A program made the translations under genes and the position numbers. From Sandaracinus amylolyticus (GTDB taxonomy: Bacteria; Myxococcota_A; Polyangia; Polyangiales; Sandaracinaceae), in contig NZ_CP011125.1 of assembly GCF_000737325.1 (NCBI RefSeq), positions 1,860,001 to 1,924,000 on the forward strand: 64,000 nt of DNA. The letters are read 5' to 3'. Below are positions 30,528-53,143 of this stretch, in pieces (the first letter of the stretch is position 1; the number at the start of each line of letters is the position of its first letter). Below the pieces are notes generated by a model, which ran no database searches, was not told the origin of the DNA, and saw only the letters and a list, made by a program, of their open reading frames with translations.

Positions 30528-31745
30528 ATGCGTTCGTTCGGGTCGATCGCTGCGGCGATCTGCGCTGTCGTGTGTTGGCTCGGGGCGAGCGGCGTGGCTC
30601 GCGCGCTCACGCTCGAAGAGGCGCTCGCGCGGGCCCGGGAGCGCGCGCCGGATCTGATCGCGTCGCGCGCCGAGCTCGCCGAGGCGCGCGGCGAGGTCAC
30701 GTCGGCGGCGGTGCCGCTCCGGACGAACCCGCTGATCGAGGCGCAGGGCGGGCCGCGCTACACGACCGACGGCGAGTGGATCGTGCAGCTCAGCGTCGGG
30801 ATCGAGCAGGTGTTCGAGCTCTCCGACGCGCGCGGCGCGCGCATCGACGCGGCGCGCGCGAGGGTCGCGTCGGCCGAGGCGGCGCTCGCGGACGTCGCGC
30901 GGGTGCTGACGGCGGAGGTCGCGTCGCGATATCTCGCTGCGCTCGCGGCGCGGGATCGTGCGGCGCTCGCGGAGTCGGGCCTCGAGCTGCTCGACACGAT
31001 GCGCGAGGTCGCGCAGCGCCGGGTGGACGCCGGAGACGCGTCGATCGTCGACGTGCGGAGGATCGAGCTCGCGCGCGCCGCGGCGCTGTCGGAGCGGGAC
31101 GATGCGCGCGCGGAGCTGCGGCGCGAGATCGGGGCGCTCCGCCTGCTGCTCGGGATCCCCGCAGCCGACGCGCTCGACGTCGAGGGCGATCTCGCGTCCA
31201 TCGCGGTGGCGTGGCGCGCGTCGACGGAGAGCGGCGAGCGTGCGGACGTCGTCGCGGCGCGCGCGAGAGAGCGCGAGGCGCGCGCGCGCGTCCGCGTCGC
31301 CGAAGCGCTCGCGGTGCCGGAGCTCGTCGCAGGGCTCGCGTATCAGCTCGAAGAGCACGATCACATGGGGCTGCTGACGCTCGGCTTCACGCTGCCGGTG
31401 TTCGACGCGGGGCACGGCGCGCGCGAGCAGGCGCACGCGCGGCTCGATGCTGCACGCGCCGAGCTCGAGCGACGCGAGTCGACGGTCGCGGTGCAGATCG
31501 CGACGGCGCGCGAGGCGTACGACGCGGCGGTCGATGCGCTCGCGGCGAGCGTGGAGTCGGCGCGATCGGCGGGCGAGGTGGAGGTGCTCGTCGCGCGCGC
31601 GTGGGACGCGGGCGAGCTGCCTCTCGGCGAGGTGCTCCTCGCGCGTCGTGAGGTGGTGGAGGCGCGAACGCTGCTCGTGACGAGAGCGCGAGACGCCGCG
31701 AGCGCGCGCATGACGCTCGAAGCGGCGGCGGGAGGTGCGCGATGA
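30528..31745 (+). CDS. TolC-family outer-membrane efflux channel (CusC/CzcC type)
   Basis: 405 residues. The signal peptide ends near SGVARA. TolC repeats of long alpha-helices: LTLEEALARARERAPDLIASRAEL, then RIDAARARVASAEAALADVARVL and the second copy from about 215. The opening LxxALxxA is typical of the family. It forms the outer-membrane duct for the metal efflux pump. Its stop overlaps the ATG of the adaptor gene (ATGA). The ATG at 30528 was chosen because the frame upstream is not signal-like. 113 bp separate it from the small Cys-rich gene. Confidence 0.88.
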   Translation: MRSFGSIAAAICAVVCWLGASGVARALTLEEALARARERAPDLIASRAELAEARGEVTSAAVPLRTNPLIEAQGGPRYTTDGEWIVQLSVGIEQVFELSDARGARIDAARARVASAEAALADVARVLTAEVASRYLAALAARDRAALAESGLELLDTMREVAQRRVDAGDASIVDVRRIELARAAALSERDDARAELRREIGALRLLLGIPAADALDVEGDLASIAVAWRASTESGERADVVAARAREREARARVRVAEALAVPELVAGLAYQLEEHDHMGLLTLGFTLPVFDAGHGAREQAHARLDAARAELERRESTVAVQIATAREAYDAAVDALAASVESARSAGEVEVLVARAWDAGELPLGEVLLARREVVEARTLLVTRARDAASARMTLEAAAGGAR

Positions 31746-32926
31746 CGGCGCGCGCGGCGGTGTGGCTGCTCTGTGCCGCGAGCCTCGGGTGCGGCGGCGG
31801 TGAGGCCGGCGAGCGCCACGAGGACGAGCACGAGCACGAGGCGCACGGCGACGAGCACGAGGCGGACGAAGGGCACGGCGAGGCCGAGGAGGGCGTGCTC
31901 GTGATCGATCGCAGCATGCTCCGCGATCTGCGCCTCACGACGTCGCCGGTGGAGGCGCGAGCGGGCGGCGAGATGGTCACCGCGCTCGCGGAGCTGCAGA
32001 CGGATCCCGATCGCAGCACCGACGTCGCGCCGCTGCTCGAGGCGCGCATCGAGCGGGTGCTCGTGAACGTCGGGGATCGTGTCGAGGAAGGGCAGCCGCT
32101 CGCGCACGTCGTGAGCCTCGGCGCGGCGCCCCTTCGCGCCGACGTGTCCGCCGCGAGCGCGCGCGTGCAGCTCGCGGAGTCGACGCTCGCGCGGAGGCGG
32201 GCGCTCGCGGAAGAGCGGATCGTGCCCGCGCGCGAGGTGCAGGAGTCGGAGGCCGAGCTCGCGCAGGCGCGCGCGGCGTTGGCCGCCGCGAGCGGCGCGG
32301 CGCGTGGTGTGCGCGGAGGGCCGCGAGGTCAGGTGGTGCTCACGAGCCCGCGCGCGGGCATCGTGCTCGCGCGCGACGCGATCGTCGGCGCGGTCGTGGA
32401 GCCCGGTCACGTGCTCTTCCGCGTCGCCGACATCTCGGAGCTCTGGGTGGTCGCGCACGTGTTCGAGCGCGACGCGGTGCGCATCGAGCGCGGTGCGCCG
32501 GTGCGGGTGTCGCTCGCGGCGCGGCCCGGCGCCGCGCTCGACGCGTCGGTCACGCGGGTCGGCACGCAGGTCGACACGCGCTCGCGCACGCTCGACATCG
32601 TGACGGCGCTGAGCAACGCCGACGGGACGCTGCGGCCCGGGATGGCGGCGACCGCGTCGATCGCGATCGGCGAGCGCGACGACCGGCTGCTCGCGGTGCC
32701 GAGCGGCGCGCTGCAGCGGCTCGCCGAGGGGTGGGTCGTGTTCGTCCCGCGTGGCGAAGGACGCTTCGAGGCGCGCGAGGTCGGGCGCGGGCGCGACTTC
32801 GGCGGCGAGGTCGAGATCGTCTCGGGCCTCACCGAAGGCGAGAGCGTCGTCGTCGACGGCGCGTTCCTCCTCAAGGCCGAAGCCGAGCGCGCGCAGGGCG
32901 GCGGCGACGAGCACCACCACCACTGA
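31742..32926 (+). CDS. RND periplasmic adaptor lipoprotein (CusB/CzcB type)
   Basis: 394 residues; lipobox SLGC (Cys17). Next comes a His/Glu-rich stretch with six His (26, 30, 32, 35, 39 and 45), then biotinyl-lipoyl halves (VLVNVGDRVEEGQPLAHV and ARDAIVGAVVEPGHVLF) flanking an alpha-hairpin (about 125-190), a beta-barrel and a membrane-proximal domain (VSGLTEGESVVVDGAFLLKAE). The C-terminus is DEHHHH. The His clusters at both ends suggest direct metal capture. It connects the inner-membrane pump with the TolC-like channel and is translationally coupled to the latter. Confidence 0.92.
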   Translation: MTARAAVWLLCAASLGCGGGEAGERHEDEHEHEAHGDEHEADEGHGEAEEGVLVIDRSMLRDLRLTTSPVEARAGGEMVTALAELQTDPDRSTDVAPLLEARIERVLVNVGDRVEEGQPLAHVVSLGAAPLRADVSAASARVQLAESTLARRRALAEERIVPAREVQESEAELAQARAALAAASGAARGVRGGPRGQVVLTSPRAGIVLARDAIVGAVVEPGHVLFRVADISELWVVAHVFERDAVRIERGAPVRVSLAARPGAALDASVTRVGTQVDTRSRTLDIVTALSNADGTLRPGMAATASIAIGERDDRLLAVPSGALQRLAEGWVVFVPRGEGRFEAREVGRGRDFGGEVEIVSGLTEGESVVVDGAFLLKAEAERAQGGGDEHHHH

Positions 32927-32938
32927 GGCGCGAAGACG

Positions 32939-35900
32939 ATGCTCGAGACGCTCGTACGCTCCTCGGCGCGACGGCCTCTGCTGGTCGTGCTCCTCACGCT
33001 CGCGGCCGCGGCGATCGGCGCCGCGACCTTCTCCGACCTGCCGCGCGACGTGTTCCCCGATCTGTCGGCGCCGGTCTTCAACATCATCGTGCAGAACGCG
33101 TCGATGGGCCCCGAAGAGCTCGAGACGGCGATCGCGATCCCGCTCGAGAACGCGCTCGCCGGGCTGCCCGGCGCGCGGCGCGTGCGCTCGTCGTCGCAGC
33201 TCGGGGTCGCGCAGGTCACGGTCGAGCTCGAGCCCGACGCGGACTACTACCTCGGTCGCCAGCTCGTCGCGGAGCGCGTCGCGCAGGTCGCGTCCTCGCT
33301 GCCTCCCGGCAGCGAGCCGCCGCTGCTCTCGAGCCTGACCGGGCGGCTCAACGAGGTGATGGAGCTGACGCTCGAAGCGGCGCCTGGCGCCGCGGATCCG
33401 ATGACGCTCCGGGACCTCGCGGAGCTCGAGATCCGCAACCGTCTGCTCGCGGTGCCGGGCATCGCCGCGGTCGAGCGGCTCGGCGGATATCTGCGCGAGG
33501 TGCAGGTGCAGCTCGACCCCGAGCGGATGTCGGCGCGTGGGGTGACGCTCTCCGAGGTTCAGCACGCCGTCGAGACCGCGAGCGCGAACGCGGCCGCGGG
33601 CTTCGTGGTGCAGGGCTCGATCGAGTGGAGCGTGCGCGCGGTCGGTCGCGCCGAGCGCCCCGAGGATCTCGCGAGCACGGTCGTCGCGATGCGCGGGGAC
33701 GTGCCCGTGCTGCTCGGCGACGTCGCGGAGGTCCGTGACGCGCCCGCGATCCGTCGCGGTCTCGCGCATCGCCTCGAGGGCGAGGTCGTCAGCCTGCGCG
33801 TCGTGCGTCAGTTCGGCGCGGACACCGCCGAGGTCTCGGAGGGCGTCCACGCGGCGCTCGCGGAGCTGAGGCCGACGCTGCCCGAGGGCGTGTCGCTCGA
33901 GGTCGCGTACGACCAGGCCGAGCTCGTGGACGAGGCGCTCTCGGGCGTGGGGCGCGCCGTGCTGATCGGTGCGCTGCTCGTGGTGCTCGTGCTCTTCGTG
34001 CTGCTCGGCGACGCGCGCGGCGCGTTCGTCGTGACGCTCACGCTGCCGCTCTCGATCGCGATCGCGGGGCTCGTGCTGCCGTGGCTCGGTGTCGGGCTCA
34101 ACACGATGACGCTCGGCGGTCTCGCGATCGCGGTCGGCTTGCTCGTCGATGCGTCGATCATCGTCGTCGAGAACGTCATGCATCGCACCGAGGGGCTCGC
34201 CCGCGGACCGGAGCTGCGCGCGCGCGCGATCGACGCGGCGGCCGAGGTCGCGCGCCCGATCGCGTTCGCGACGCTGATCGTGGTCGCGGTGTTCCTGCCG
34301 CTCTTCGCGATGCAAGGGATCGAAGGACGCATGTACGCGCCGCTCGCGGCGGCGGTGATCGCGTCGCTCGGCGCGTCGCTCGCGCTCGCGCTGACGTTCA
34401 CGCCCGTCCTCGCGAGCATCGTGCTGCGCCCGAGCGCGAGCGCCGGCAGCGAGGTCGGCGTGGTCCGCGCGCTGCGACGCGCGTACGAGCCGCTCCTCGC
34501 GTGGGCGATGCGCCACGCCTGGCTCGTGCGCATCACCGCGCTGCTGGTCACCGTCCCCGCCGTCGTGATCGCGATGCGCATCGGCGGCGACCTCATGCCG
34601 CGGCTCGACGAGGGCGCGCTCCTCATCCAGACGGTGCTGCCGACCGAGGCGTCGCTCGAGGAGGTCGATCTCCTCAACCACCGCGTCGAGGACGCGCTGC
34701 GCGAGTTCCCCGAGGTCGACGACGTCGTGCGCCGCACCGGCCGCTCGGAGCGCACCGAGGACCCGATGCCGCACACGATCAGCGACGTGCTCGTCGTGCT
34801 CCGGCCCGACCGCGCGCGCAGCGGGCAGCAGCTCGCGGACGCGATGCGCGTGCGGCTCGAGCGCGTGCCCGGCGTGACGGCGCTGTTCACGACGCCGCTC
34901 GGCATGCGCATCGACGAGGGGCTCGGCGGCACGCCCGCCGACATCGCCGTGCGCATCTTCGGGCCCGACTCGGCGCGGCTCGCGACGTTCGCGGAGCAGG
35001 CGCGCGAGATCGTGGAGCGCGTGCCCGGCACCGCCGACGTGCGCGCCGAGCGCGCGAGCTCGCTCCCGCAGATCCGGATCGAGGTCGATCGCGCCGCCGC
35101 GGCGCGCGTGGGGCTCACGCCGGGCGACGTCGTCGAGGCGGTGCGCATCGGCATGGTCGGCGACGTCGCGGGCGAGCTGTGGCGCGGTCCGCGGCGCGTC
35201 GACGTCCTGCTGCGGCTGCAGGACGCGCATCGCGGAGACCTCGCCGCGATCCGCGGGCTGCTGCTCGACGGGCACGACGGCACGCGCATCCCGCTCGGCC
35301 AGGTCGCGCGCATCGAGCAGACGCTCGGGCCCGCCGCGATCCGTCGCGAGGCGGGCAGCCGTCGTGTCGCGGTCGAGTCGAGCGTCTCGGGACGCGACCT
35401 CGCGAGCACCGCGGCGGAGATCCGCGCTGCGCTGTTCGAGCAGCTCGAGCTGCCCACCGGCTACTTCTTCGACGTCGGTGGGCGCGTCGAGACCCAGGCG
35501 CGCGCGACGCGATCGCTCGCGCTCGCGATCGCCGTCGCGATCGCGGCGGTGCTCGTGCTGCTCTACATCGCGCTCGGCTCGCTCGAGGAGACGCTCGTCA
35601 TCCTCGCGACGCTGCCCGACGCGTTCGTCGGCGGGATCCTCGCGCTCTGGATCTCCGGCGAGACGTGGAACGTGTCGTCGCTGGTCGGGCTGATCGGGCT
35701 CTTCGGGATCGCCGTGCAGAACGGGCTCGTGCTCGTCACCCAGACGCGCGGGCTCGTCGCCGAGGGCTTGCCCTTCGAGGCGGCGCTCGAGCGCGCGAGC
35801 CTCGGCCGGCTGCGGCCCAAGGTGATGACCGCGGCGACCGCGATGCTCGGGCTCCTGCCGATCCTGGTGCTCCCGCTGCGCGGCACGGAGATCGAGCGGC

Positions 35901-36019
35901 CGCTCGCGATCGTGATGATCGGCGGGCTCGCCACGTCGACGCTGTTCACGCTGCTCGCGCTCCCCACGTTCTACGCGCTGGTCGAGCGGCTCCGGCAGCG
36001 CCGCGCGAGCGCGCGATGA
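32939..36019 (+). CDS. CusA/CzcA-family heavy-metal RND efflux pump
   Basis: 1026 residues, 12 transmembrane helices in the RND pattern. N-terminus LVRSSARRPLLVVLLTLAAA, porter loop DLPRDVFPDL. TM4 carries GLLVDASIIVVENVMHR: the proton-relay Asp is present but the DFG of zinc-type pumps is absent, closer to monovalent or undefined HME groups. TM helices continue through VLLYIALGSLEET and QNGLVLVTQTR to the end. It exports a metal cation from periplasm or cytosol using the proton gradient. It is the last gene of the efflux set, 12 bp after the adaptor, and converges on the sigma54 regulator with a 7-bp gap. Confidence 0.93.
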   Translation: MLETLVRSSARRPLLVVLLTLAAAAIGAATFSDLPRDVFPDLSAPVFNIIVQNASMGPEELETAIAIPLENALAGLPGARRVRSSSQLGVAQVTVELEPDADYYLGRQLVAERVAQVASSLPPGSEPPLLSSLTGRLNEVMELTLEAAPGAADPMTLRDLAELEIRNRLLAVPGIAAVERLGGYLREVQVQLDPERMSARGVTLSEVQHAVETASANAAAGFVVQGSIEWSVRAVGRAERPEDLASTVVAMRGDVPVLLGDVAEVRDAPAIRRGLAHRLEGEVVSLRVVRQFGADTAEVSEGVHAALAELRPTLPEGVSLEVAYDQAELVDEALSGVGRAVLIGALLVVLVLFVLLGDARGAFVVTLTLPLSIAIAGLVLPWLGVGLNTMTLGGLAIAVGLLVDASIIVVENVMHRTEGLARGPELRARAIDAAAEVARPIAFATLIVVAVFLPLFAMQGIEGRMYAPLAAAVIASLGASLALALTFTPVLASIVLRPSASAGSEVGVVRALRRAYEPLLAWAMRHAWLVRITALLVTVPAVVIAMRIGGDLMPRLDEGALLIQTVLPTEASLEEVDLLNHRVEDALREFPEVDDVVRRTGRSERTEDPMPHTISDVLVVLRPDRARSGQQLADAMRVRLERVPGVTALFTTPLGMRIDEGLGGTPADIAVRIFGPDSARLATFAEQAREIVERVPGTADVRAERASSLPQIRIEVDRAAAARVGLTPGDVVEAVRIGMVGDVAGELWRGPRRVDVLLRLQDAHRGDLAAIRGLLLDGHDGTRIPLGQVARIEQTLGPAAIRREAGSRRVAVESSVSGRDLASTAAEIRAALFEQLELPTGYFFDVGGRVETQARATRSLALAIAVAIAAVLVLLYIALGSLEETLVILATLPDAFVGGILALWISGETWNVSSLVGLIGLFGIAVQNGLVLVTQTRGLVAEGLPFEAALERASLGRLRPKVMTAATAMLGLLPILVLPLRGTEIERPLAIVMIGGLATSTLFTLLALPTFYALVERLRQRRASAR

Positions 36020-39000: not shown

Positions 39001-40577
39001 GCCAGCCGCGCGTGCGCGGCGCGCAAGGCCTCGTCGCCGAGCGCACGACGCGCGCGCTCGACGTCCTCGGCGCGCGCGATCCGCAGCGCTCCGTCCTCGA
39101 CGCGCGCGAGACCCTGGTGCACCAGCTCGATCGCGCCCTCGCGCTCGCTCGGCGCAGCGCCGCCCGCGGCGAGCTCGGCGAGCACCTCGCGCGCAGCCCT
39201 CGAGAGCGGCGCGACGTCGATCGCGCCCGACGTGGTCGTGCCGCGCCGCAAGCGCGCCGCGATCTCCCCGGGCAGGCCGCGCACCTCGCGCACGATCGGC
39301 TCGACCTGCGCCGCGGGCACGCGCCCTCCGAGCCAGCGCCGCACCGCGTCGTCGTCGAGCGGCGGCACGCGGAGCTCGAGCGCGCCTTCGAGCGATTCCC
39401 CGCGCTCGAGCGTGGTCACCGCGAAGAGCAGCGGATCGCTCGGCTCGAGCAGCGCCACGAGGGCGCGCGCGAGCGCGCGCTCCATCGGCTCGATCCGGTG
39501 GACGTCGTCGAGCACCAGCACGGTGCGAGTGCCCGCCGCGCGCACCCGTCGCAGCATCGCGATCACGTCGCGCGCATCGGCGACGCGCTGTCCCGCGATC
39601 CGCTCCAGCGCGCGCTGGAGGCGCGCCTCGCGCCCGATCGCCTCCTCGACGCGCACCCGCATCTGCGCGCGCCAGCGCAGCTCCGAGAGCAGGCGCGTGC
39701 GACCCGCGCCCGGCGCGCCCACGAGCGCGATCGCGCGCGGCCCCGATCGAGCGTGCACGAGCGCGTCGAGCGCCGACTCGAGCTGCGCGACGATCGCGTC
39801 GCGACCGATCGTGCGCGACGCGTCCGCCGGTCCCGACGTCGGCGGCGGCAGCGCGAGCAGGTCGCACACCTCGAGCACGTCGACCGGGCGCTCCGCGGGA
39901 TCGAGGGCGAGCAGGCGCGCGGCGAGACGCCGCACGTGCGCGGGCACGCGCCCGCGACACGCCTTCGCGAGCACCTCGAGCGTCCGCCCGAGCGCGAACA
40001 GATCGGAGCGCGCATCGCCCGGCTCGCCGCGCATCCACTCGGGCGCGACGAACCCCGGCGTGCCGCGCAGTTCGCCTTTGCGCAGGCCCGTCGCGCTCCG
40101 CGCGCCGACGCTGCGCGCGCAGCTGAGATCGATCAGCGTCGCGCCGCGCGCGCCGACCAGCACGTTGCGCGGCGTGAGATCGCCGTGGAGCACGAGGTTG
40201 CGGTGGAGCGTGAAGAGCGCGGAGAGCGCCTCCGCGAGCCGCGGCTCGACCGCGTCCCACGCGCGACCGCGTGCGTGCTCCTCGAGGTCGCGTCCTTCGA
40301 GCCGGGGCGCGGTGTAGAAGCCGTGCGCCGCGCCGTCGATGCGCGCGACGCCGACGTCGAGCAGGCGCACGAGGCTCGGATGCGCGAGCCCCGTGAGCGC
40401 GCCGAGCTCGTCGCGGAACGCATCGGCGAGCCCGGGCTCGTCGAGCGCGACGAGCTTGAGCGCGACCTCGTCGCCGGTGCGCTCGTCGTGCACCGCGAGC
40501 ACGGTCGACGCGCCGCCGCGCCCGAGCACGCCCTCGACGCGATAGCGATCCGCGATGATCGACCCGGGCGCGAGCAC
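36027..40577 (-). CDS. Kinase-ATPase-TPR-GAF-sigma54 activator fusion regulator
   Basis: 1516 residues. Order: protein-kinase fold (about 10-240) with Lys41 in VALKLV, but HGD (131-133) in place of HRD and DLS (150-152) in place of DFG; AAA/NACHT-like ATPase with Walker [10 protein letters not shown] (286-294) and Walker B LVLDDVH; long TPR-type array (about 520-1000); GAF domain (about 1030-1180); sigma54 AAA+ domain with GESGSGKE (1253-1260), GAFTGA (1300-1305) and FLDEVGEM; Fis-type HTH (1489-1511). It should open sigma54 promoters after an unknown signal. GTG at 40577 is preferred because the earlier GTG at 40631 would make the operators coding. It is divergent from the lipoprotein operon it probably controls. 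Confidence 0.9.
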
Positions 40578-40593
40578 TGTACCAAATGGTACA
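40578..40593. promoter_or_regulatory. Palindromic operator 1 (activator-binding-type site)
   Basis: TGTACCAAATGGTACA: perfect 7-bp arms with a 2-bp centre. It abuts the preferred GTG of the fusion regulator. The sequence resembles NtrC-class sites (TGCACC...GGTGCA), which fits the Fis-type HTH of the adjacent regulator. Confidence 0.75.
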
Positions 40594-40599
40594 CTCGAC

Positions 40600-40615
40600 T
40601 GTACCAAGTGGTGCA
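40600..40615. promoter_or_regulatory. Palindromic operator 2
   Basis: TGTACCAAGTGGTGCA, matching operator 1 at 14 of 16 positions, with one mismatch in the arms. Its centre is 22 bp (two helical turns) from that of operator 1, so bound dimers would sit on the same face. Confidence 0.75.
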
Positions 40616-40632
40616 ATCGCGGCGTGCTCACT

Positions 40633-40648
40633 CCGCGAATTCTCGCGG
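40633..40648. promoter_or_regulatory. Third inverted repeat in the same gap
   Basis: CCGCGA-ATTC-TCGCGG: perfect 6-bp arms with a different sequence from operators 1 and 2. It lies between operator 2 and the candidate sigma54 promoter and may be bound by another protein. Confidence 0.35.
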
Positions 40649-40656
40649 TTTCCGTG

Positions 40657-40671
40657 TGGCCCGCCTCCTGC
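40657..40671 (+). promoter_or_regulatory. Candidate sigma54 -24/-12 promoter
   Basis: TGGCCCGCCTCCTGC against consensus TGGCACG-N4-TTGC: GG and GC fall exactly 12 apart with two mismatches at less critical positions. It is correctly oriented toward the lipoprotein operon and about 50-85 bp from the operators. However, the predicted start near 40683 would exclude the RBS-like GAAGGGGA (40672-40679) from the transcript and leave a 5-nt leader, so either the site is chance or the gene is nearly leaderless. Confidence 0.45.
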
Positions 40672-40687
40672 GAAGGGGACCGTCCGC

Positions 40688-41362
40688 ATGCGCTCGTCCG
40701 CGACCTCGACGCTCCTCCTCGCGCTCGTGATCACGAGCGCGTCGTGCGTCGGCACGCCGCAGCCGAACCCGCCCGCGCTCGACGTGAGCCGCATCGGCAC
40801 GATGCGCTCGACGCGCCTCTTCGGCGTGGCGGGCGCGCTCGATCCCGACGCGCAGCTCTGGATCACGCCGCTCGACACGACCGGCGATCCGCAGATCGTG
40901 CAGCCCGCGCCGGACGGCAGCTTCGCGGCGCCGGCGCTCGACGGAGAGCGTCATCGCCTCCAGCCGAAGCTCGAGGCCGACGTCGAGGCGCTCCGCGGGC
41001 CGCCGGTCGACGTGCTGCTCGTCGACGGCGTGATGCTGCTCGGCCCTGCGATCGGCTGCTGGCACGTGCCCGCCGACGCACGCGCGCCCGACGCGCGCAT
41101 CGGCGAGGCGAGCGAGCTCGTGATCGCGATCGAGAACGACTGCGACGCGCCGCTCGTCGTGACCGCCGCGACGCCGCGCCGCGCCGGCGACGTCTCGGTG
41201 ATCGAAGCGCCGGGCGAGATCGCGCCGGGCACGTCGGGCTCGCTGCGTGTCGCCATCGCACCGAGCGCGGAGGGCGAGCGCGAAGAGGTCGTCGCGCTCG
41301 ACGTGAGCGCGCCCGCGACGGAGCGTCGATGGATCACGGTGCACGGGGTGGGACGCCGATGA
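40688..41362 (+). CDS. Surface lipoprotein of the sigma54-regulated operon
   Basis: 224 residues; signal II peptide with lipobox TSASC (Cys20). The mature part is all-beta in appearance, with [19 protein letters not shown] followed by a second half resembling an Ig-like/ASPM-SPD-2 fold ([34 protein letters not shown]), as in choice-of-anchor or abnormal-spindle-type domains. Specific function unknown. It is the first gene after the operator region. Its stop overlaps the ATG of the IgGFc-type gene (ATGA), giving translational coupling. Confidence 0.75.
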
Positions 41363-50787: not shown

Positions 50788-51815
50788 GCACGGCCGTGTC
50801 GGAGCCCGCGCGCACGTACAACCAGAGTCATTCGCCCCGGAAGTACGTCGCGGGCCGGCGGCGCGTGAGCGTCTACATCGCGTGGAGCTATCCCGGCGAG
50901 GCCAATCGCGACGTCACTCAGATGGACAATCGGTTCTCGACGATGACCGAAGTCCGTCGTGTGCTCTGGCCGCAGTACGAGACTCCGCGGTTCGCCGATC
51001 CCGGGATGTTCCAGCAGGGGATCGCAGGATCGCTCGAGCTCTTCTTCTGGGCGTGGGTGCGATTCCAGAACGTGATCGAGCAGACGACGGGACATCGAGT
51101 GCCGGTGTTCCAGCGCGTCGATCAGGCGGGATTCCGACTGCCGCTCGACGAGCGCGTGCTCGCCGACGTCGACACGCTGCTCGTGTTCGGGCTCGACCAC
51201 GTCGTGACGGGACAGGAGGCGTCCGCGGAGGAGATCGAGTCCGTGCGCGCGTTCCTCGCGCGAGAGGGCACGTGCCTCGTGATCGGTCCGCACCACGACG
51301 TGGGTGGGTCGCAGGATCTCGAGGAGCGAGCGATGGAGTACGCGCACCACGGCGACGCGCTGGTGCCGCGACAGCAGCGCTTCGGGCTCTACACGCGCTC
51401 TCTGATGCGCGGTCTCGGGATCCCGATCGAGAACCGGTTCGGGCTGCGCCCCGCCGTGCAGCGCGGGACCCAGCGGATCGCGCCGCTCGACGTCGCGCGG
51501 GATCTCGACGCTCGTGGTTGGCTCGCGGGCGTCACCAACTTCAACTTCCACATGCACCTTCCGCATTACGCGGTCACCGATCCTGCGAGCTCCGCGCGCG
51601 TGCTCGCGCGACAGCCGATCGACACGTCGAAGCCGCACCCGTTCACCGCAGCCGGGAACACCACGTTCAACGCGCTCGTGTGGCTCCCGCCGGGCGGAGA
51701 GCGCGCGGGTGACGTGCTCGTCGCGGACTCGACGATCTTCAGCACGTTGTTCGGCGGCGACGAGAGCTTGGAGCGCTTCTGGCGGAACCTCGCGACGGCG
51801 TCGGTGCGTGCGTGA
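50784..51815 (+). CDS. Unrecognised protein, second gene of the DyP operon
   Basis: 343 residues, no signal peptide or transmembrane helix. The centre, TLLVFGLDHVVTGQEASAEEIE then VRAFLAREGTCLVIGPHHDVGG, looks like a glutamine-amidotransferase-like or ThuA-like alpha/beta fold, without a nucleophilic Cys elbow visible. The N-terminus (VSVYIAWSYPGEANRDVTQMDNRF) and a His-rich stretch (NFNFHMHLPHYAV) are distinctive. Function not assigned. It is coupled on both sides: GTGA with the upstream gene and TGATG with the peroxidase. Confidence 0.75.
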   Translation: MSTAVSEPARTYNQSHSPRKYVAGRRRVSVYIAWSYPGEANRDVTQMDNRFSTMTEVRRVLWPQYETPRFADPGMFQQGIAGSLELFFWAWVRFQNVIEQTTGHRVPVFQRVDQAGFRLPLDERVLADVDTLLVFGLDHVVTGQEASAEEIESVRAFLAREGTCLVIGPHHDVGGSQDLEERAMEYAHHGDALVPRQQRFGLYTRSLMRGLGIPIENRFGLRPAVQRGTQRIAPLDVARDLDARGWLAGVTNFNFHMHLPHYAVTDPASSARVLARQPIDTSKPHPFTAAGNTTFNALVWLPPGGERAGDVLVADSTIFSTLFGGDESLERFWRNLATASVRA

Positions 51816-53143
51816 TGGGAGCGGACGTGTCGCTCGAGCTCGACGACATCCAGAGTGGCGCGCTGCGCCCTCGGCCCACGCCGTACGCCGCGACGTACAT
51901 CCTCCTGAAGATCCACGATCGCAGCGCCGGCAAGGAGCTGATGCGTCGCCTGAGCGTGGCAGTCGCATCGGCCGCGCACCCCGCGAGCCCGCTCGGAGAC
52001 ACCTGGCTCAACGCGCTCCTGACGTTCCACGGGCTCACGGCGCTGGGCGTGCCGCAGCAGTCGCTCGACAGCTTCGCGTGGGAGCTCCGACAGGGCATGG
52101 CGAGCCGCGCTTCCGCGCTGGGCGACACCGGCGAGAGCGCGCCGGAGCACTGGGAGAAACCGCTCGGGACGTCCGACGTGCACGTGGTGCTGGTCGCGCT
52201 CGCGCCCGATCGCGGACTGCTCGAGACCGCGCTCGGGCGTGCGCGCGAGTCGTTGCGCGGGCTCCCCGGCGTCGAGGCGATCTGGCAGCAGGACTGCCAC
52301 GCTCTGCCGACCGAGAGAGAGCCTTTCGGGTTCCGCGACGGCATCAGTCATCCCGCCATCGAGGGCAGTGGAGTCCCGGGCACGAATCCCGCGGAAGTGC
52401 CGCTGAAGGCCGGAGAGCTCGTGCTCGGATATCGCGACGAGCTCGGTGGATTCCCGCCGATGCCCCAGCCGGACGTGCTCGGTCGCAACGGCACGTACGT
52501 CGTGTTCCGCAAGCTGCACCAGAGAGTCGCCGCGTTCCGTCGATATCTGCGCGAGCGCGCGACGAGCCCCGCGGACGAGGAGCTGCTCGCCGCGAAGATG
52601 ATGGGACGCTGGCGCAGCGGCGCCCCGCTCGCGCGCTGTCCGCTCCACGACGATCCCGAGCTCGGCGCCGATCGAGCGCGCAACAACGCCTTCGACTACC
52701 GCGCTGACGATCCGACCGGATATCACACGCCGATCGGGAGCCACATCCGACGCTGCAATCCGCGCGACTCGGAGGTGGCGGGTGTCGCCCGACTCCATCG
52801 GATGATCCGTCGTGGCACCGCGTACGGGCCGCTGCTCCCCGAAGGCATGCTGGAGGACGACGGCGCAGATCGCGGGCTCGTCTTCGCGTTCGTCGGCGCG
52901 CATCTGGGACGGCAATTCGAGTTCGTGCAGTCGGAGTGGGTCAACGGAGGCGAGTTCATCGGCCTCGGAGACGCGCGTGATCCGATTGCGGGCTCGGCAG
53001 ACGGCCAGGGTCGGTTCTCGATCCCGCGCAGGCCGATTCCTCGACGGCTCGACGGACTGCCGCGCTTCGTCGTCACGCGAGGTGGGGAGTACTGCTTCAT
53101 GCCGAGCCTTCGCGCGTTGCGCTGGTTGTCGGAGCTGCCCTGA
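51815..53143 (+). CDS. DyP-type haem peroxidase
   Basis: 442 residues. Diagnostic GFRDGISHP (172-180) with the catalytic Asp175; proximal haem ligand His310 in GSHIRRCNPR; distal Arg region RLHRMIRRG (326-334); C-terminal FVGAHLGRQFEFVQSEW typical of the family. No Tat signal, so it is cytoplasmic or encapsulated; no encapsulin gene is seen here. Decolorising peroxidases oxidise dyes, haems or aromatic compounds with hydrogen peroxide. The ATG at 51815 overlaps the upstream stop by one base; a GTG one codon earlier is possible. Confidence 0.93.
   Translation: MGADVSLELDDIQSGALRPRPTPYAATYILLKIHDRSAGKELMRRLSVAVASAAHPASPLGDTWLNALLTFHGLTALGVPQQSLDSFAWELRQGMASRASALGDTGESAPEHWEKPLGTSDVHVVLVALAPDRGLLETALGRARESLRGLPGVEAIWQQDCHALPTEREPFGFRDGISHPAIEGSGVPGTNPAEVPLKAGELVLGYRDELGGFPPMPQPDVLGRNGTYVVFRKLHQRVAAFRRYLRERATSPADEELLAAKMMGRWRSGAPLARCPLHDDPELGADRARNNAFDYRADDPTGYHTPIGSHIRRCNPRDSEVAGVARLHRMIRRGTAYGPLLPEGMLEDDGADRGLVFAFVGAHLGRQFEFVQSEWVNGGEFIGLGDARDPIAGSADGQGRFSIPRRPIPRRLDGLPRFVVTRGGEYCFMPSLRALRWLSELP

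Follow-up and report, generated by a model that had tools for sequence, protein, structure and literature searches.

A candidate control region for a sigma54 switch between a kinase-fused activator gene and a lipoprotein operon in Sandaracinus amylolyticus

Introduction

The promoters recognized with sigma54 follow the consensus GG-N10-GC, in which the C of the GC pair is taken as position -12. In the PspF-pspA system, the activator gene is divergent from its sigma54 operon, and PspF has no sensory N-terminus. NtrC, a response regulator with a receiver domain, recognizes the 17-bp site TGCACC-N5-GGTGCA. In proteins of the HstK and PknK types, a Ser/Thr kinase comes first, and an AAA_16-like region with additional sensor or TPR parts comes after it; the HstK-type kinases have a histidine kinase at their C-terminus. 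Other activator genes divergent from a sigma54 operon are reported in Desulfovibrio (PMC4641369), and in Borrelia the sigma54 activator Rrp2 and RpoN belong to a pathway leading to lipoproteins that works through RpoS (PMC3037356, PMC3162934).

Here, we describe an intergenic region of S. amylolyticus that we take, with a probability of about 0.85, to be the control region of a self-contained sigma54 switch for a lipoprotein operon, a reading drawn from sequence comparison. In the titles, abstract openings and occurrence counts of the open-access literature (the subscription literature, for instance on the myxobacterial kinome, lies outside this scope), we recognized no kinase-sigma54 activator fusion of this kind; among the same open-access titles, abstract openings and counts, no leaderless sigma54 messages were recognized either. 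The words sigma, kinase, lipoprotein and enhancer are all absent from the main text of PMC5010890.

Materials and methods

The window, that is, the whole stretch of DNA analysed, comprises 64,000 nt of the soil bacterium Sandaracinus amylolyticus (GCF_000737325.1, NZ_CP011125.1, positions 1,860,001-1,924,000, forward strand). Homologues of the regulator were searched with an alignment of 12 rows covering the part that follows the kinase (E <= 1e-30). Matches were obtained in 50 of the 183 genomes of the order, at no fewer than 67 places with eight candidates scored per genome; within the family, five of ten genomes had a match and the other five had none. A class-wide search of 317 genomes with shallower scoring matched one genome outside the order (G187), which is not among the loci analysed. 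Sixty-five of the 67 places, in 48 genomes and all within one order, were anchored at the kinase start, L138 and L141 being dropped because their kinase start lies outside the stretch.

Promoters were scanned at 50-200 bp from the regulator start, on the strand that points away from the regulator gene, and the best GG-N10-GC site was taken. Half-sites were counted in 50 loci (41 genomes) having a strict GG-N10-GC site that scores at least 8 at 60-180 bp, a selection made by the sigma54 site alone and blind to half-sites. By these criteria, ten of the 65 anchored homologues are without the module, six of them being a distant subfamily within family f5. A divergent lipoprotein start was found in 47 of the 50 loci, the exceptions being L097, L103 and L112. 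For the leader count, +1 was set 12 positions past the C of GC and start codons were considered from 5 nt before +1 onward.

Results

The regulator and its locus

The regulator gene is arranged back to back with an operon of three lipoprotein genes, and the putative sites and promoter are contained in the 110-bp stretch that separates them (Table 1). Within the operon, the start of the second gene overlaps the stop of the first (ATGA). To the other side of the regulator gene, the window contains a HlyD_D23 membrane-fusion gene and an RND efflux gene (ACR_tran, E 4e-242) at 31742-36019, the end of the latter being convergent to the regulator and 7 bp from its stop. An open frame at 51812-53143 gives a sub-threshold match to the N-terminal domain of DyP peroxidase.

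Table 1. Features of the regulator-lipoprotein locus, in positions of the window (aa, residues of the regulator; distances of half-site centres refer to the predicted +1)
Feature	Position	Strand	Remarks
Regulator gene, 1516 aa	36027..40577	-	Pfam; alignment of 8 homologues; motifs across module loci
Ser/Thr kinase	aa 12-200
AAA_16	aa 257-385
TPR	aa 726-933
GAF	aa 1036-1173
Sigma54-interaction AAA+	aa 1225-1390		followed by lid
Fis-type HTH with recognition helix	36051..36152 (aa 1476-1509)	-	PF02954, E 3.9e-11
Dyad 1, TGTACCAAATGGTACA	40578..40593		half-site centres -102, -93
Dyad 2, TGTACCAAGTGGTGCA	40600..40615		half-site centres -80, -71
Sigma54-type promoter, TGGCCCGCCTCCTGCG	40657..40672	+	orientation and position conserved beside homologues
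Lipoprotein 1, 224 aa	40688..41362	+	lipobox SASC
Lipoprotein 2, 594 aa	41359..43143	+	lipobox LAAC; IgGFc_binding, PF17517, E 3e-61
Lipoprotein 3, 795 aa	43173..45560	+	lipobox IAAC; DUF5122 beta-propeller repeat

The Pfam domains of the regulator are Pkinase, AAA_16, TPR, GAF, Sigma54_activat, AAA lid and HTH_8; neither a receiver domain nor a C-terminal histidine kinase was found in it by Pfam. As had been read from the sequence before any search, the GAFTGA motif is intact in the alignment and a Fis-type HTH is present, so that the protein has the parts expected of a sigma54 activator, namely an AAA+ domain with GAFTGA and Walker A and a C-terminal Fis-type HTH. The catalytic Lys, Glu, Asp, Asn and Asp of the kinase are invariant in all eight aligned proteins, and among the 55 module loci the catalytic loop HGD-N is found in 54 and DLS or DLG in 52. 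Seven homologues of full length can be aligned with the window regulator over its entire length, at 39-49% identity. GAFTGA is exact in 37 of 43 full-length homologues; the L091 regulator (G003:C202) has GAFTDA, though its module has promoter and lipoprotein, and two other proteins of the 43 have GRFSQA or GRFSEA. The best-supported start of the regulator is the GTG at 40577, directly beside dyad 1, since the homologues start at about the same place. Judged by its first 700 aa, the window regulator has its nearest relatives in other genera, namely in G005:C173 (55%) and G003 (41% and 40%); in G002, which belongs to the same genus, only the type that is found at 0.27 Mb of the window's genome is present.

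Palindromes and half-sites

The two palindromes that had been noticed beside the regulator are present: they share 14 of their 16 bases, and 22 bp separate the centres (40585.5 and 40607.5). The observation as a whole exceeds chance. The sequence TGTACCANNTGGTRCA is found without mismatch at a single place, this locus, in the 10,327,335 bases (10.33 Mb) of the genome; the pattern TGTACCA-N1..30-TGGTACA likewise occurs once genome-wide, here, and its reversed control was also matched once on either strand. When up to two mismatches are allowed, the palindrome pattern shows no excess in its own genome (29 + 29 matches vs 24 + 27 for the reversed control), and the weaker matches are therefore mostly chance, with the exception of a pair beside a TetR gene at 5.6 Mb that is described below. 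In 26 of 38 related genomes the pattern occurs with at most one mismatch, about as commonly as the reversed control, and of these places one was linked to a homologue, in G003:C447, where the 16-mer pattern lies a few bases upstream of the regulator gene. In relatives, as far as these counts indicate, the pattern is tied to the regulator and is not enriched by itself.

The sequence-only reading had named a lack of conserved palindromes beside orthologous regulators as what would refute it. When this was examined, the reading was not refuted: clusters of half-sites with an oriented -24/-12 box were found to recur beside the homologues; the perfect dyads turned out to be no rule. In the 50 loci there are 140 TGNNACA half-sites on either strand, vs 14.8 expected from dinucleotide shuffles; at least one is present in 47 loci and at least two in 42, three loci having none. 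Beside relatives the rule, judging from the sequences, is thus repeated half-sites and not perfect palindromes like those of the window. Perfect palindromes as a general rule were rejected, dyads with seven-bp arms numbering 5 vs 1.9 expected over the 50 loci.

Most half-sites (130 of 140) lie between -135 and -55, those of L116 and L117 being beyond -155, and the centres cluster near -72, -84, -92, -102, -111 and -122. Such distances to a sigma54 start are usual for activator sites. The half-sites are in helical phase with the predicted +1 (R 0.53 at 10.5 bp), vs a mean of 0.11 and a maximum of 0.345 in 2000 sets in which each locus was randomly shifted; related loci are counted separately in this value, and when loci with identical position sets are removed R is 0.515, a figure without a null of its own. 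The window has four copies of TGGTACA (Table 1), the last of which, TGGTGCA of dyad 2 at -71, is one base off and was left out of the half-site counts.

A possible address code

The recognition helix has the form PR-x-T-[L/F]YR, and the residue after PR goes with the class of the half-sites: M, T or N with TGG(T/A)ACA, and A or P with TGA(G/T)ACA. Helix and half-site agree in 36 of the 37 regulators with a majority class, out of 42 examined, the exception being L128. Relatedness could explain much of this agreement: the tree shows just two changes of helix class and three of site class, which leaves one or two independent pairs, all concordant but many fewer than significance would require; a smaller tree gives two or three independent pairs (p 0.5). 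A Fisher test on distinct HTH strings (3e-6; 9/9 and 16/17, with 5/31 having no majority) was discarded, since it ignores relatedness and the trees provide just one to three independent pairs, all concordant.

Paralogous modules with different addresses are found in G174, G176 and G181, where TGAGACA stands vs TGGTACA or TGGAACA. In the window's genome, the 0.27-Mb module carries TGGAACA three times and TGGTACA once, an address that differs from that of the window module. Both modules of G141 have TGAGACA, one of them also with TGGTACA.

The sigma54-type promoter

The -24/-12 box proposed between the palindromes and the operon was confirmed, with GG at 40658-59, GC at 40670-71 and ten bases between them; it scores 9 of 12 and places the predicted +1 at 40683. 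Beside the homologues, a site of at least 9 of 12 faces the divergent gene in 45 of the 65 anchored loci, compared with 4.8% of shuffles and with one of 65 loci on the opposite strand; TGGCACGTTGCCTGCT, TGGCACGCCGCCTGCT and TGGCATGGTCGCTGCT are examples. A strict consensus scan of both strands of 40450-40800 found no sigma70-type -35/-10 pair. The genome search gave one match for rpoN. At the level of sequence, then, the locus combines a -24/-12 promoter with putative sites some 70-130 bp upstream, and the recurrence of sites and oriented promoter beside the regulator homologues argues for the dedicated circuit that had been suggested for this window alone.

Five loci (L108, L109, L114, L136 and L139) fail the strict promoter test and have in the same place TGGCACG-N4-TTGA or a close form. 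In these, TTGA replaces TTGC at -12, with the spacing kept in four; the three that were placed on the tree form one clade. Four of the five have a predicted leader of 2 nt, and L136 one of 17 nt.

A leader predicted to be nearly absent

From the predicted +1 to the ATG of lipoprotein 1 (40688-40690) there are 5 nt. That almost no leader would remain had been raised as a caution; among the relatives it appears to be a conserved property. A signature, C-x-x-x-P-x-P-x-P or one residue shorter, is found at the mature N-terminus of 35 of the 47 divergent lipoproteins (CVVSPQPSPP is an example from another locus), lipoprotein 1 of the window included, and in 34 of these 35 loci the first in-frame start codon follows the predicted +1 after 1-7 nt. 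The predicted leader measures 2 nt in 17 loci, 3 in seven, 5 in five, 1 in two, 7 in two, 4 in one and 14 in one. A 5' end within a few nucleotides of the start codon, which defines a leaderless message, is predicted here from the position of the promoter alone.

It is rather unlikely, in our judgment, that sites and promoter are used as proposed while the main message starts earlier and has a leader, with the SD-like AAGGGG in use. This hexamer (40673-40678, upstream of the predicted +1) is well placed for the ATG at 40688; in the 12 loci without the signature the leaders vary and measure 11-34 nt from the first start codon in seven; and at some loci in-frame start codons, which are outside the leader count, lie within or before the box. 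Against an earlier start stand the nearly fixed distance from box to start codon across the order, the presence of a single fitting start codon in the scanned stretch of 17 of the 35 signature loci, and the scan for sigma70-type sites described above. The SD-like sequences can be read both ways: 4-mers of this kind precede 15 of the 35 signature starts and are missing from 20, whereas 10 of 12 other genes from such operons, picked by hand, have one. Near-leaderless translation thus agrees with the conserved spacing and the SD counts, and the lipoprotein message would probably begin a few nucleotides before its start codon.

The regulator side of the sites

As the sites touch the start codon of the regulator gene, the bound regulator would be expected to hinder its own leftward transcription. 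Forty loci have a regulator-proximal half-site, and in 19 of them it runs into GACACT, TACACT or TACAGT; the first in-frame start codon is 5-8 nt past this hexamer in 15 of the 40, and in the window it overlaps the hexamer. The three hexamers resemble a -10 element, and the bound regulator might block a promoter of its own there. Both this run into -10-like hexamers and the contact of dyad 1 with the start codon would also be seen if the palindromes served the autoregulation of the fusion gene only, the lipoprotein operon being controlled otherwise. We consider this improbable, since promoter and half-sites are conserved together, the latter in helical phase with the divergent sigma54 start, and since the strict scan found no sigma70-type pair on the regulator strand either.

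That the palindromes are operators of an unrelated, trans-acting repressor of the TetR type and the -24/-12 match a chance one is very hard to credit: a similar pair (TGTACCTGCCGGTACA, TGTACCGCGTGGTACA) does lie between TetR and short-chain dehydrogenase genes 3.7 Mb off in the same genome, and G002 has one 16-mer of that pair, but none of the at least 45 TetR_N matches of the genome (150 of 265 first-look candidates scored) is in the window, the nearest being about 42 and 70 kb away, so that the window palindromes do not adjoin a TetR gene of their own, and the half-sites keep helical phase to the sigma54 box and recur beside fusion-regulator homologues of many genera in variants that match the HTH of the regulator concerned.

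This pair, at L005:7720-7783 (G000:C1, about 5609718-5609782), consists of two TGTACC-N4-GGTACA palindromes whose centres are 49 bp apart; the TetR gene (PF00440, E 4.6e-12) flanks it on one side and the short-chain dehydrogenase gene, divergent from the former, on the other. The palindromes are probably operators of the adjacent TetR.

Operon content

Lipoprotein 1 has an Ig-like match below the Pfam cut-off, and nine of 28 aligned members match Ig-like ASH models weakly (E 0.01); its single-sequence structural model is poor (mean pLDDT 45.7). A domain scan of the first genes of seven non-signature loci gave no match.

The second gene of the operon encodes a serpin in three relatives and a Kazal-type inhibitor in 15, that is, in 18 of the 32 second genes scanned, which were picked from 47 loci by a longest-frame rule and of which some are possibly misread. 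The second gene of the window is unlike these, its product being a lipoprotein of the IgGFc-binding family. The predicted lipoprotein serpins are at L085:7266-8579, L087:3921-5237 and L096:753-2054 (PF00079, E 3e-91 or better). At L089:3105-4334 and L092:3584-5143, the second-gene lipoproteins of near relatives of the window module have cysteine-rich repeats in which a Kunitz-like cysteine spacing is seen by eye, with no Pfam match. Such inhibitors may serve to protect against proteases from prey, rivals or kin, a reading that may not apply to the operon of the window.

Discussion

We propose that the fusion protein binds the TGNNACA half-sites through its Fis-type HTH and that a signal received by its N-terminal domains would lead to ATP hydrolysis and to the opening of sigma54 RNA polymerase at the -24/-12 box, with the three-lipoprotein operon being transcribed rightward from about 40683. 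More tentatively, and in our estimate with slightly less than an even chance, the homologues may represent an order-wide family of insulated one-component kinase-sigma54 switches, each paralogue with its own address, that drive near-leaderless lipoprotein messages, often for membrane-anchored inhibitors (serpin, Kazal).

If this is true, the module would be a kinase-gated one for surface defence or prey interaction, and selection would have placed its sigma54 promoters directly against the start codon. The serpin and Kazal lipoproteins linked to it in relatives would point to a regulated defence against outside proteases, and the near-fixed distance from promoter to start codon throughout the order suggests that translation under sigma54 is near-leaderless. 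Since one protein unites a eukaryotic-like kinase with a sigma54 activator, and target, promoter and sites lie together, both the signal and the DNA code are directly testable; where a single genome holds paralogous modules whose half-sites differ, these constitute a natural series for studying the code by which Fis-type HTH domains recognize DNA.

With regard to known proteins, the window regulator shares with the HstK-type and PknK-type proteins the Ser/Thr kinase, the AAA_16-like region and the sensor and TPR parts; its output, however, is a sigma54 activator with an HTH, and it is not counted as HstK-type. NtrC has similar half-site letters and a Fis-type HTH, but the sites described here are of 16 bp and vary by subfamily (TGGTACA, TGGAACA, TGAGACA, TGATACA), and the regulator, having no receiver domain, is not assigned to the NtrC class. 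As with Rrp2-RpoN of Borrelia, the pathway of this sigma54 activator would end in lipoproteins, although control is here predicted from sequence to be direct and local. The closest likeness in layout is to PspF-pspA and the divergent cases of Desulfovibrio, in which the activator is also back to back with a sigma54 operon, with upstream sites between them and likely negative autoregulation; unlike in PspF, kinase, AAA, TPR and GAF precede the activator part, the putative targets are lipoproteins and the predicted +1 abuts the start codon. The known plan is, then, that of a divergent activator and sigma54 operon, and what sets this conserved variant apart is the kinase-fused activator, the promoter predicted to be near-leaderless, the addresses that vary between modules and, in the relatives, the lipoproteins that are protease inhibitors.
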